From NCBI RefSeq assembly GCF_034313965.1, contig NZ_JAVIWQ010000002.1:3596001-3660000 (forward strand): DNA of 64,000 nt, written 5' to 3'. Made by a program: the position numbers and the translations under genes. Source of the stretch: Herbaspirillum sp. RTI4 (GTDB lineage: Bacteria > Pseudomonadota > Gammaproteobacteria > Burkholderiales > Burkholderiaceae_D). The notes under the pieces are model-generated. The model made no database searches. It saw nothing but the letters and a program-made list of their open reading frames with translations, and had not been told where the DNA came from. Shown piece after piece: positions 5,837 to 54,461 of this stretch; position 1 is the stretch's first letter, and the number at the start of each line of letters is the position of its first letter.

Positions 5837-7209
5837 TGCGTCATTTTTTTGGATCGATCGCCAATCGGGTATTTTTGATTTTACTGGCAGGGATTCTGGT
5901 TGCCACGCTGGTCACCATCTGGCTGGCCAATAATGAACGCAAGGGAGTGCTGCGAGACATTCGTGTGCAGCATGCCGCTGAACGCGTTGAGCAAATTGTG
6001 CTCGCACTCGATAATCAGACGCCGCAAGTACGTCAGGCTATTTTGCAAGCGGCGCGCAATTTCGGTTTCGATGTGGAAATGGTGGCGGCCGACGATCAGC
6101 TGCGCAACGACGATAGCGATGCGCTGATCGATATCCTGAAAGGACGCTTTGGCACACAGCGTCCCGTCATCGGGCAGCGCGAAACGAGCTGCAATCGAAA
6201 CAATGGCATTGATGCCAGCGGCCATCGAAGGCCGGAAACATGCCGTCTCGTTTATGTCGGGCTAGACGACGGCAAGTTATTGAAAATCAAGCTGCATATT
6301 CCCAGCGATTTGCCGCCGCCATTTGCGCAAAATGGCGGACTGCCGCTGCCCTATCCAGGCCCCTACACCATTTTGTTTCTGGTGTTGATTGCTGCACTTG
6401 CGTATGCCGTTGCGCGGATGGCAGCCAGCCCGATTCAGCGCTTATCGACGGCGGCAACGGCCTTGGGTCGCGACATTGATCAGCCACCGCTGGAAGAAAC
6501 CGGCCCCACTGAAATCAAACTGGCAGCCCGCGCTTTTAATGCCATGCAGGCACGGATACGACGGCAGATTCAGCATCGCACGCATATGCTGGCGGCGATT
6601 ACACATGATTTACAAACACCCCTGACGCGACTGCGTTTGCGGCTGGAAAAAGTCGGCGATGAGGAATTGCGTATCAAGTTGATTGACGATCTGGCCGTGA
6701 TGCAAGGCATGGTGCGCGAAGGTCTGGATCTGGCGCGCAGCATGGATGATTCGTCGGAAAAAATGCAGCGACTGGATATCGACTCGCTGCTGGCCAGCGT
6801 GTGCGCCGACGCCAGCGACGCCGGCCATCAGGTAGAACTGCAAGGCAGCACGCGGCAGCAGATCATCGGGCAACCGAGTGCTTTGAGGCGCTGCCTGACC
6901 AATCTTCTGGACAACGCGATTAAATACGGCCAGCGGGCCGAGGTCAGTTGCATTGAAGAAAACGGACGGATTGTCATTACCCTTCACGATGCTGGTCCGG
7001 GCATCCCCGAAGATCAGCTGGATGCGGCATTCGATGCGTTTTATCGGGTGGAAACTTCCAGATCGCGCGATACCGGCGGCACAGGACTGGGACTGACGAT
7101 TGCGCGCAATATTGCGGAAAATAATCTCGCGACACTGACGCTGAAAAACCACTCGGCGGGTGGGCTGGTGGCGACGCTCAGTTTGCCGATAGCGCCGCTT
7201 AAAAATTGA
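5836..7209 (+). CDS. EnvZ/BaeS-type sensor histidine kinase
   Basis: Membrane sensor kinase of 457 residues, partner of the preceding regulator. Helix 1 is at about 12-31, followed by a periplasmic domain of about 145 residues carrying a Cys pair (near 119 and 136). Helix 2 is at about 177-195, then a HAMP linker (ARMAASPIQRLS). The H-box HDLQTPLTRLR (His257) resembles EnvZ. The N-box is LLDNAIKYG, and G-boxes DAGPGIPEDQ and GGTGLGLTIA complete the ATPase domain. Translational coupling with the regulator is evident from the one-base overlap. The signal is unknown; the two periplasmic cysteines could form a disulfide (inference). Confidence 0.92.
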   Translation: MRHFFGSIANRVFLILLAGILVATLVTIWLANNERKGVLRDIRVQHAAERVEQIVLALDNQTPQVRQAILQAARNFGFDVEMVAADDQLRNDDSDALIDILKGRFGTQRPVIGQRETSCNRNNGIDASGHRRPETCRLVYVGLDDGKLLKIKLHIPSDLPPPFAQNGGLPLPYPGPYTILFLVLIAALAYAVARMAASPIQRLSTAATALGRDIDQPPLEETGPTEIKLAARAFNAMQARIRRQIQHRTHMLAAITHDLQTPLTRLRLRLEKVGDEELRIKLIDDLAVMQGMVREGLDLARSMDDSSEKMQRLDIDSLLASVCADASDAGHQVELQGSTRQQIIGQPSALRRCLTNLLDNAIKYGQRAEVSCIEENGRIVITLHDAGPGIPEDQLDAAFDAFYRVETSRSRDTGGTGLGLTIARNIAENNLATLTLKNHSAGGLVATLSLPIAPLKN

Positions 7210-50073: not shown

Positions 50074-51210
<1,137 letters not shown>

Positions 51211-51355
51211 TCATTTAATATATTTAGTTAAGCAAAATCTAACAAATCAGATATTTAACGGATACTGGCGAAATGCGCCGATATAACAAACCAGCGCAAC
51301 GGCGCTAGTTCGGTTTTATTAGGAGTTCCAAGTCTTCAACGGTTGAAAAATGAGA

Positions 51356-51940
51356 CTAGCCCACCACCCACTTACGCCACTCACTACAAAGCTTACGAAA
51401 CGATCGGCTATTATCATGTGCTAATTGCAGATCCATACGCGCCGAAAAAGCTGGCTGATCGGTGATTTCCCAGTACTTCCCTCCAGATTTTCCCTTGCTT
51501 AGCCATTCTTTCGCTCCTCGGATAGACTCCACCATTTCAAAATTCTCGGAAAAGAAAAAACCTCTGCAATTTTGGAGAGATGAAACCGCGGCCAAGAACC
51601 ATGCTTCATATTCACGATTAGCTAAAACCACGGAAACGTGTCGATGAGGAACGATTTTTTTGGCGCGCTCGAGAGTTTGCGGTCCCAATTCAGCAGGACA
51701 ATCATCATCGGCATCCAGAAGCACACAAATCCAACCATCCTCCCCACATTTCGACGCAGCCAGTTGAAGCATTCGACTAAATTCTTCATCCTTATTGAGG
51801 AACCGATCCCGTCGCACTCGTATTGGTGGCAATACATTGCAGTAAACTTCTGGAGACAACCAATCCCCTAACCTTCTAAGTAATATTGGGAATGCCTCAA
51901 CTTCGCCATCTCCTTCGACGATAGTGGCTATCGACTTCAT
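51356..51940 (-). CDS. DUF4276 family protein (TOPRIM-like), second gene of an ATPase/TOPRIM pair
   Basis: A 194-residue cytosolic protein. IVEGDGEVEAFPILL at the N-terminus (Glu9) and CVLLDADDDCP (Asp76, Asp78) have the spacing and sequence of the Glu and DxD metal sites of TOPRIM nucleases. DUF4276 is a family seen beside AAA ATPases. Its ATG overlaps the ATPase stop (ATGA), so the two are translationally coupled. By analogy with OLD and PARIS systems it would be the effector nuclease or modifier triggered by the ATPase; this is inferred. It has not been matched to a named defence system here. Confidence 0.8.
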   Translation of the reverse strand: MKSIATIVEGDGEVEAFPILLRRLGDWLSPEVYCNVLPPIRVRRDRFLNKDEEFSRMLQLAASKCGEDGWICVLLDADDDCPAELGPQTLERAKKIVPHRHVSVVLANREYEAWFLAAVSSLQNCRGFFFSENFEMVESIRGAKEWLSKGKSGGKYWEITDQPAFSARMDLQLAHDNSRSFRKLCSEWRKWVVG

Positions 51941-53142
51941 TCTCGGGAATCCCCAAACAAGTCTGGTTGATTGCGGGCCTGCTCCTCAATCTGCGTGGGA
52001 TCTGGCCCAAGTTGCTTCAAGCGTAGTAACTCGCCGGCAGAAAATAAGTGACTCCTTATAGCATCGCGAGAAGATTGATCTAATCGGGCAATTTTTGTTA
52101 CACCCTCTTCGGCAGTTACAGCGCGTATTGCATCCTCTGGTATATCGAAGTCATCAAGCAAATCCGGGCTGTGGCTCGTTACTATGATTTGAGTGCGCCC
52201 AGAAGCGAGTATCAACGCTTCGCGTAACGCAGATGCAGCAGCAGGATGCAACGCCGTTTCCGGTTCTTCTATTCCAATTAACGACGGCGCGTAGTCTCGA
52301 TTTCCCTGAAACAGAGCGGTCAATACTCCCAACGCACGCAAAGTTCCGTCCGACATATTTTGTGCAAAAAAATGCCAGGGGTGTTTTGCTCCCGCCATGT
52401 CTTGTTGAAATTGTAGAGACTCCATTGGCCCTACCGCATGCCGCTTTACCCCATGCACCATAGGAACAACTGCATGCAAATATGCTTTGATTAGCTCTAT
52501 AGCATCAGGAGCAGTGCGCTCAAGATGCGCAATGACACTCGCAATATTTTCACCTGCCGCCTTTAACAGACGCCCATCTTGAGGCTTCTGTAATTCGCGA
52601 ACCAACTTAGGATTGATGTTGTAAAACCCCATCGCGGTCAACGCATCAAAAATAGGACGGAATACGGTTAATCCAGACGCGCTCACCAGTGCCAAACGGT
52701 CCGACGTCACGGTAGGGAAAGTTGCCTCGCTAGCATTTTTTAACTGCCCTCGCTCAAGCTTAAAATAAGGTCCTTTACCGACACCGCCAATTGCGCATTC
52801 TTCTGTCTGGACCTCATAACCACCGCTAGGTAGTGATCCCACATTGAAGGCATAGTGACCACGCTCGCCCGTTGGCAGCTGAAATTCTAGGCGAATTCCA
52901 AAATGAGTGGGGTGGCCACTCGATCTACGACGCACCTCCGACAATCCACCTCGTTCATTGAGTGCATTATCGAGAGAGCCACTTAATGCGTCCTTCACCA
53001 AATGAAGTGCATCTAGAAAATTACTCTTCCCTGCTCCATTTGCCCCAACCAAATAAGTCAAGGAACTTAAACGCACATCACACGCCGCGATGCTCTTATA
53101 GTTTCGCAAAACGACGCGAGTTAAAAAAATAGGAGCCGCCAT
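51937..53142 (-). CDS. AAA/ABC-type ATPase (AAA_21/OLD-like) of an ATPase-TOPRIM pair
   Basis: A 401-residue SMC/ABC-like ATPase. Walker A GANGAGKS (33-40), signature-like MSDGT (263-267), Walker B LIGIEEPE (with Glu292/293) and switch His324 in TSHSPDLLD are all intact. The N-terminal FLTRVVLRNYKSIAACDVRL is typical of OLD/RecF-type ATPases. OLD enzymes carry a C-terminal TOPRIM domain; here it is absent and is replaced by the separate DUF4276 gene. I chose the ATG at 53142 with GGAA upstream; a TTG six codons earlier is possible. It is inserted between queA and tgt. Confidence 0.87.
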   Translation of the reverse strand: MAAPIFLTRVVLRNYKSIAACDVRLSSLTYLVGANGAGKSNFLDALHLVKDALSGSLDNALNERGGLSEVRRRSSGHPTHFGIRLEFQLPTGERGHYAFNVGSLPSGGYEVQTEECAIGGVGKGPYFKLERGQLKNASEATFPTVTSDRLALVSASGLTVFRPIFDALTAMGFYNINPKLVRELQKPQDGRLLKAAGENIASVIAHLERTAPDAIELIKAYLHAVVPMVHGVKRHAVGPMESLQFQQDMAGAKHPWHFFAQNMSDGTLRALGVLTALFQGNRDYAPSLIGIEEPETALHPAAASALREALILASGRTQIIVTSHSPDLLDDFDIPEDAIRAVTAEEGVTKIARLDQSSRDAIRSHLFSAGELLRLKQLGPDPTQIEEQARNQPDLFGDSRE

Positions 53143-53231
53143 ATAGATTCCATTTCGCAATAGTTACATCAATCCAGATACCAGATGGGAAATCGTGTTG
53201 TCATGGCCCACAACCGCTCACGGCTGACATT

Positions 53232-54263
53232 TTAGTCCTCTTTGGCACTAACTTTTGTTAGCAACATCGCATCGCCGTAACTGAAAAACCGGTAGCGCTG
53301 CGCAATCGCATGCGCGTAAGCGGCGCGGATGGCGTCGAGGCCGGCGAAAGCCGATACCAGCATCAGCAAGGTGGACTTCGGCAAATGGAAATTGGTGACC
53401 AGCCTATTCACCGTCTTGAAACGATAACCGGGCGTGACGAACAGACGCGTATCGGCGCTGCCGGCTTGCAGCGTGCCGGACTGCGAGGCCGATTCCAGCG
53501 CCCGCAGGCTGGTCGTACCGACGGCCACCACCTGCCGCCCGGCCGCTTGCGCTGCCTGCACTGCGGCGACAGTCTCCGGCGGCACCGTGTACCACTCGCT
53601 ATGCATGTGATGTTCGGCCAGATTTTCCACCCGCACCGGCTGGAAAGTACCCGCACCGACGTGCAAGGTCACAAACGCCCGTTTTACGCCCTTGGCTTCC
53701 AGACGATCCAGCAAGGCCTGATCGAAATGCAAACCGGCGGTAGGCGCGGCGACCGCGCCCGGCTCCCTGGCGTAAACCGTCTGATAGCGCGTTTCATCGA
53801 ATTCATCGGCGTCATGCGCGATATACGGCGGCAACGGCAGGCGGCCATAGGCTTCCAGCAAGGCATACGCATCCGAGGGGAAGCTCAGCGTATAAAACTC
53901 GCCGTGACGTTCCCCGACCACCACATCGAAGGCCTCGGCCAGCCGGATGGTGCTGCCCGGCGTGGGCGATTTGGAGGCGCGGATTTGCGCATGGGCGGTG
54001 CGGTCGTCGAGTACGCGCTCAATCAGCACCTCGACCTTGCCGCCGGTCTGCTTGATGCCGAAAAACCGCGCTTTCAGCACGCGGGTATCGTTAAACACCA
54101 GCAAATCGCCGGCGTCGAGCTGATCGATCAGGTCGCTGAAACTGCGATCGCTGAGCTGTACGCCCTCCACCTGAAGCAGGCGCGAGGCACTGCGCTCAGG
54201 CAGGGGCAATTGCGCGATCAGGTCGTCGGGCAATTCAAAATCGAAATCGGAAAGAACGTGCAT
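53232..54263 (-). CDS. queA: S-adenosylmethionine:tRNA ribosyltransferase-isomerase
   Basis: Makes epoxyqueuosine in tRNA. It has 343 residues starting [30 protein letters not shown], the standard N-terminus; a start 15 codons earlier is less likely. [26 protein letters not shown] and [18 protein letters not shown] are diagnostic. First gene of the queA-tgt-yajC-secDF order, separated from tgt by the ATPase/DUF4276 pair. Confidence 0.96.
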
Positions 54264-54461
54264 GGGAACCATCAGAAAAAAGAATCGGTGCTGTCGGGAG
54301 GGCAACATGCAGATAAAGCAGACGCTGACCTGTCGCCGGTCATGACTGCCATTACAATGACGGGTTGCCGGTATTGTCCGGCCAATCCCTAGCAGCCTGT
54401 CAGGCTGCCAGGCAACCCGCTATTTTACGCGCTTGCCGCTTTCCGACCAAGTTCCGCCCCA

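Follow-up and report, generated by a model that had tools for sequence, protein, structure and literature searches.

The window analysed here, a 64,000-nucleotide stretch of the Herbaspirillum sp. RTI4 genome, holds a two-gene cassette between queA and tgt, listed below from queA to tgt.

53232..54308, minus strand: queA, the upstream flank
53143..53231, minus strand: leader between queA and the ATPase gene, absent among the congener junctions listed
51937..53142, minus strand: ATPase gene (HEC-01A), ATG start, stop codon included, 401 aa, an OLD-type ABC ATPase
51937..51940, minus strand: ATGA, the 4-nt overlap of the ATPase stop with the DUF4276 start, from the ORF coordinates
51356..51940, minus strand: DUF4276 gene (HEC-01B), stop codon included, 194 aa, from its sequence a probable TOPRIM nuclease
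51202..51355, minus strand: spacer between the DUF4276 gene and tgt, with one promoter-like match, not above chance
50074..51201, minus strand: tgt, the downstream flank

The initial annotation had described an intact AAA_21/OLD-type ATPase that lacks a TOPRIM domain of its own, joined by an ATGA overlap to a small protein, the pair lying between queA and tgt. Both reading frames are present and intact on the minus strand. The coordinates confirm the overlap, and the description of the ATPase holds as well: the 401-residue product matches AAA_21 above the Pfam cut-off (3.7e-28), and no TOPRIM family is found among the 7 Pfam families that match it at E values up to 1. An alternative upstream TTG start at 53160 is possible for this frame, and among the matches listed most relatives have an ATPase of 396–417 aa. 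The GC content is 0.46–0.50 across the cassette, against 0.51–0.64 in the flanks. A promoter belonging to tgt itself in the downstream spacer was considered and rejected, the whole region yielding 1 match against 3.1 expected from shuffles.

The sequence motifs of the ATPase, with their conservation across 78 ATPases, are these.

53023..53046, minus strand: Walker A, GANGAGKS, residues 33–40 (G33, N35, G36, G38, K39 and S40 each in at least 97%)
52336..52356, minus strand: ABC signature-like MSDGTLR, residues 263–269 (seven of seven positions in at least 97%)
52243..52275, minus strand: Walker B and D-loop, GIEEPETALHP, residues 290–300 (every position except I291 in at least 97%)
52165..52179, minus strand: H-switch, TSHSP, residues 322–326 (five of five positions in at least 97%)

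By sequence, the nearest solved chains are OLD 6p74 (5e-6), GajA and PtuA (5e-6 to 5e-4), followed by SMC-type ATPases.

The protein encoded by the second gene matches DUF4276 above the Pfam cut-off (6.7e-10); a Pfam scan taken to E values of 10 gives it no match to a TOPRIM family, whether OLD-like_TOPRIM, RloB or DUF3226, and a search of PDB sequences at E up to 1 finds nothing. Three stretches stand out when it is aligned with its relatives, a set of 91 sequences made up of 57 database proteins (the window's own included) and 34 from named loci.

51902..51919, minus strand: TOPRIM motif 1, VEGDGE, residues 8–13 (E9 invariant, E13 in at least 90%), aligning with the VEGxxE of OLD
51701..51715, minus strand: TOPRIM DxD, DADDD, residues 76–80 (D76 and D78 invariant in the subfamily), aligning with the DxD of OLD
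51599..51613, minus strand: EYEAW, residues 110–114 (E110, E112 and W114 invariant), aligning with the FExW stretch of RloB

Profile–profile comparison supports the view that DUF4276 is a distant TOPRIM homologue, with a strength that depends on the breadth of the profile. Against an OLD TOPRIM profile of 18 sequences, the narrow subfamily matches weakly (15.7%), a wider set of 24 sequences reaches 64.8%, and the combined profile of 55 sequences reaches 91% (pairwise E 1e-6), its VEGxxE and DxD motifs lining up with those of OLD. The corresponding values are 6.7%, 35.6% and 79% for RloB, represented by 9 sequences, and 1.6%, 3.2% and 12% for DUF4435, represented by two. As yardsticks, the same method gives 52% for RloB against OLD and 39% for DUF4435 against OLD. 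The controls consisted of shuffled and reversed profiles; ten column shuffles and the reversed profile against OLD, and five shuffles and the reversed profile against RloB, all gave 0.4% or less. Taken singly, few of the 91 relatives make such a connection: 10 match OLD-like_TOPRIM weakly (best 0.025), 11 match RloB weakly (best 0.017) and 2 match DUF3226 weakly. The E...DxD motifs that had been read as TOPRIM-like at the outset are supported by the invariance of E9, D76 and D78 and by their register with OLD. Many of the wider DUF4276 members carry D-x-Y in place of DxD, so that some DUF4276 proteins may lack nuclease activity. In the literature searched, we found no published account of DUF4276 as an OLD/RloB-like TOPRIM protein.

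By its model matches, the gene pair is a member of the PADLOC candidate defence system HEC-01. The HEC-01A model (PDLC04178) covers ATPase residues 3–397 at 1.1e-179, and the HEC-01B model (PDLC04196) covers residues 1–191 of the DUF4276 protein at 5.6e-82; for both proteins these models lead the other defence models listed by far, with AriA far below for the ATPase (2.8e-27) and the Old and GajA models also scoring far lower. No NCBIfam model matches the cassette proteins above its cut-off. The gene order is that of HEC-01, ATPase first and DUF4276 second, adjacent and on the same strand, and the copy here is a solo one between two core genes. The defence-model search proposed in the initial annotation gives both proteins a name and supports the reading of an ATPase plus TOPRIM-like defence cassette, with defence as its predicted function; what that annotation had missed is that the pair was already catalogued. 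HEC stands for 'Hma-embedded candidate' (PMC12988326, citing Payne et al., a preprint from 2024), and, in the text available from that source, antiviral activity is shown for several HEC systems, HEC-06 among them. HEC-05 and HEC-06 are described as acting independently (PMC11411939), and HEC-01 is listed among the predicted systems of Desulfovibrio piger (PMC12724379). We found no phage assay of HEC-01 in the papers searched.

Three groups of known systems bear comparison with this pair. PARIS (AriA/AriB), as described in PMC10568477 and PMC12409363, likewise encodes its ATPase and its TOPRIM nuclease as separate genes, and separate adjacent genes are what is found here, the TOPRIM assignment coming from the profile comparison. 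The pair differs from PARIS in that HEC-01B has no AriB match (PADLOC, E up to 1), Pfam gives it DUF4276 alone, and its profile similarity to DUF4435, from two sequences, is weak. AriB is a DUF4435-type protein. AbiL and RloA-RloB, in the account available to us (PMC10440598), also pair an AAA ATPase with an RloB/OLD-type TOPRIM protein; the broad DUF4276 profile matches RloB, and the ExW stretch is common to both, whereas the window protein itself has no RloB-family match and the link is a distant one between profiles. OLD class 1 and Gabija GajA have an ATPase of the same family by sequence and a related TOPRIM, but there the two are fused (PMC10568477, in the part consulted); here they are separate genes, the 401-aa ATPase has no C-terminal TOPRIM fusion and, in a further difference from Gabija, no GajB helicase is present at the window locus.

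The two genes are a maintained unit under strong purifying selection, co-evolving and spreading horizontally. An ATPase homologue adjoins DUF4276 in 79 of 80 named loci, the exception being L034, a MAG in which the DUF4276 frame is open and no full ATPase is recognisable. Of the 79 named loci having both genes, 69 would allow an overlap of 4 nt, an upper count, given that the in-frame start codon nearest the expected place was taken. Pairwise distances of ATPase and DUF4276 correlate across 78 loci (r = 0.78, with 0 of 1000 permutations as high) in a test that ignores host relatedness. By a simple count over nine pairs, some of them near saturation, dN/dS is 0.03–0.07 for the ATPase and 0.03–0.20 for DUF4276. 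Besides L034, which also looks like a decaying copy, L075 holds a decayed one with a stop codon within DUF4276. Copies from different families and classes are intermingled in the ATPase tree.

The comparison of the queA-tgt junction suggested in the initial annotation shows that the pair is not fixed there. A close ATPase (E <= 1e-60) is present in 3 of 61 relatives, namely the window's own genome and two congeners, and at E <= 1e-90 in 4 of 245 genomes of the family. queA is found in 33 of 34 genomes of the genus; the junction is readable in 31 of 33 congeners, and in 28 of these queA and tgt are adjacent, with 10–43 bp between the matches. The other three have 4.5–4.8 kb of another insert (L117:6851-11401; L119:2140-6657; L118, where queA ends at 2225 and tgt starts at 6756), and in the two that were read this holds an ORF of ~1500 aa without a Pfam match above cut-off. 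In a draw of 145 genomes from the family, queA and tgt lie on one contig in 138, and a gap of at least 1 kb between them, judged by eye, is seen in 2: the window's own genome and G084. The latter has a 335-aa ORF between the two genes (L179:1724-2731), which we take to combine an HTH, a GHKL ATPase and a STAS-like part.

The two congeners that do bear HEC-01 have an empty queA-tgt junction; their pair lies downstream of ychF, and their ATPases group with Halomonadaceae. A diverged pair sits exactly between queA and tgt in Duganella sp. SG902, with an ATPase 56% identical to that of the window. The ATPase tree places the window copy with Caballeronia (97/92) and leaves Duganella as a long outlier, so that separate arrivals at queA-tgt in the two lineages seem likelier than shared inheritance, although the long branch leaves the placement of Duganella unsure. 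The recurrence in Duganella is what could commend a housekeeping role tied to queuosine tRNA modification, as the position between queA and tgt might imply. Such a role is most improbable: queA or tgt is present in the locus DNA of 1 of 80 named loci, those 28 congeners do without the pair at the junction, and the other insertion sites largely refute it.

What surrounds HEC-01 elsewhere was counted in 69 upstream and 70 downstream genes scanned from 71 loci, to which the window's own locus contributes no neighbours. Among the matches listed upstream, Pfam gives YchF 5 times, YicC 4, N6_N4 DNA methylase 5, an EngA-type KH domain 2 and N6_Mtase 2, and PADLOC gives type III methyltransferase 5 times, type I methyltransferase 2, a second HEC-01A-like ATPase 2 and mad2 2. 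Among those listed downstream, PADLOC gives a GajB-like UvrD 3 times, and JetA, JetC (Wadjet), a type I REase, a PLD helicase, a second HEC-01A and a second HEC-01B once each; Pfam adds Phage_integrase twice and TGT once. Defence neighbours are real but a minority, and many HEC-01 copies stand beside core genes. When 509 neighbour genes are grouped at 35% identity, the methylase cluster occurs in five loci, always as the first gene upstream. In L044, L048, L051, L074 and L082 a type III-like DNA methylase precedes HEC-01 at a distance of 9–49 bp, and in L048 and L051 a UvrD-like gene, identified by eye, follows HEC-01. In a single clade (L022, L045, L068, L081, L086 and L056), the pair is within or adjacent to a probable methylcrotonyl-CoA carboxylase / HMG-CoA lyase cluster, as judged by eye and from Pfam.

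Mobile elements and general rules of siting were also considered as accounts of this distribution, and none was retained. Targeting of tRNA genes fails as a rule, with a tRNA gene within 1 kb in just 4 of 50 loci scanned (L011, L026, L052 and L069). A provirus or plasmid origin is set aside on counts of 3 in 72,556 plasmid records (E <= 1e-15, all Streptomyces) and 1 in 50,697 phage records (E <= 1e-5); no relative was confirmed when viral contigs were scanned by pattern. Many defence systems, unlike HEC-01, are not rare on plasmids and phages. On the Streptomyces plasmids, two distant copies keep the pair, one of them adjoining an ATPase and a helicase. Insertion downstream of a co-directed gene was rejected as a rule on a weak excess (the gene upstream runs in the same direction in 61 of 71 loci, against 273 of 367 background pairs, p = 0.047); the downstream neighbour is co-directed in 43 of 71 (p = 0.02), both direction tests being uncorrected for relatedness. 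No att-like flanking repeat was convincing among those listed for the window cassette and for L083, L005 and L029.

These distributions bear on the proposal that HEC-01 is a toxin–antitoxin or addiction pair, in which the ATPase would neutralise a TOPRIM toxin for selfish persistence and phage defence would be secondary or absent. There is precedent in PMC10440598, where toxicity assays show AAA ATPases counteracting two toxins of the TOPRIM_OLD type, of which one is RloB-like, and the 4-nt overlap of the genes would suit such a pair. We nevertheless judge it unlikely, in view of the rarity of HEC-01 on plasmids, its absence from most congeners, the recurrence of restriction-modification neighbours, and L034, whose DUF4276 gene without a full ATPase is a poor fit to a constitutively toxic effector.

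The newest point is the occurrence of solo HEC-01 copies beside core genes, with queA-tgt occupied in two unrelated HEC-01 lineages. Solo two-gene sites comprise queA-tgt, the downstream sides of ychF, yicC and der, and the methylcrotonyl-CoA carboxylase cluster. Several of these sites are each confined to one clade, as is the carboxylase cluster, and the insertions are therefore not all independent. The repeated solo sites, the lack of convincing flanking repeats among those listed for four sites, and the Phage_integrase count of 2 in 70 among the matches listed would suggest an unrecognised insertion route. That such a route might deliver minimal defence cargo beside core genes, and, in a bolder extension, place a tRNA-nuclease effector under local housekeeping-operon regulation, is a speculative idea that we regard as rather doubtful.

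By analogy with PARIS and AbiL, we infer for HEC-01 an anti-phage activity, with complex formation, a trigger, a nuclease activity, a substrate and an abortive outcome. The window pair would then be a horizontally acquired system in which the ATPase controls a TOPRIM nuclease, a reading to which we assign a probability of roughly 0.6. The OLD-type ABC ATPase, HEC-01A, would act as the phage sensor and bind HEC-01B, keeping its TOPRIM nuclease inactive or ready; a phage component would alter the state of the ATPase, and the TOPRIM metal site (E9/E13 and D76/D78) would be freed or switched on. HEC-01B might then cut a nucleic acid that the infected cell cannot do without, with phage growth stopped by abortive infection. 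Since HEC-01 divides the work as PARIS and AbiL do, on separate genes that here overlap, a sensor ATPase that restrains a TOPRIM nuclease would be the simplest arrangement. The sensor of PARIS is AriA; on detecting phage it frees AriB, a TOPRIM nuclease of the two-metal kind that cleaves the host's tRNA (PMC12409363, as far as that text was available), and AbiL is stated to work by abortive infection (PMC10440598). The translation block described in the latter source belongs to a different, non-TOPRIM toxin, AarT, and the phage screen reported there produced no hit for the AarT pair. Against this reading of HEC-01 count the housekeeping genes among many of its upstream neighbours, its rarity on plasmids and phages, the weak match of the narrow DUF4276 profile, the D-x-Y of many wider members, and L034.

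As for the substrate, we lean slightly toward RNA, probably tRNA, over DNA because of the PARIS example alone. The main rival keeps the same anatomy but takes DNA to be the target, following OLD and Gabija, with a nucleotide-held complex that nicks or cleaves phage or host DNA during infection. This is possible, though clearly the less probable reading. In its favour, OLD 6p74 and GajA are the closest solved sequences to the ATPase, the DUF4276 profile is closer to OLD TOPRIM (91%) than to RloB (79%) or the two-sequence DUF4435 (12%), and UvrD helicases occur in 3 of the 70 downstream neighbours, among the matches listed. Against it, PARIS, the one two-gene ATPase plus TOPRIM system with a published substrate in the papers searched, cleaves tRNA (PMC12409363), and the window locus has no helicase partner.

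HEC-01 is a widespread, catalogued, little-studied candidate antiviral system, of which the window copy is a new example. With HEC-01, DUF4276, a large domain family without known function, becomes tied by sequence comparison to TOPRIM nucleases, and K39 of the ATPase and D76 and D78 of the putative effector offer concrete residues for testing. Pairs of this kind can occur on their own with core genes on either side, a setting in which surveys for defence islands may overlook them. In all, 3277 proteins match the window copy of DUF4276 at E <= 0.001. Of 200 genomes searched in the phylum, 51 have a DUF4276 match, and some carry 6 or 7.
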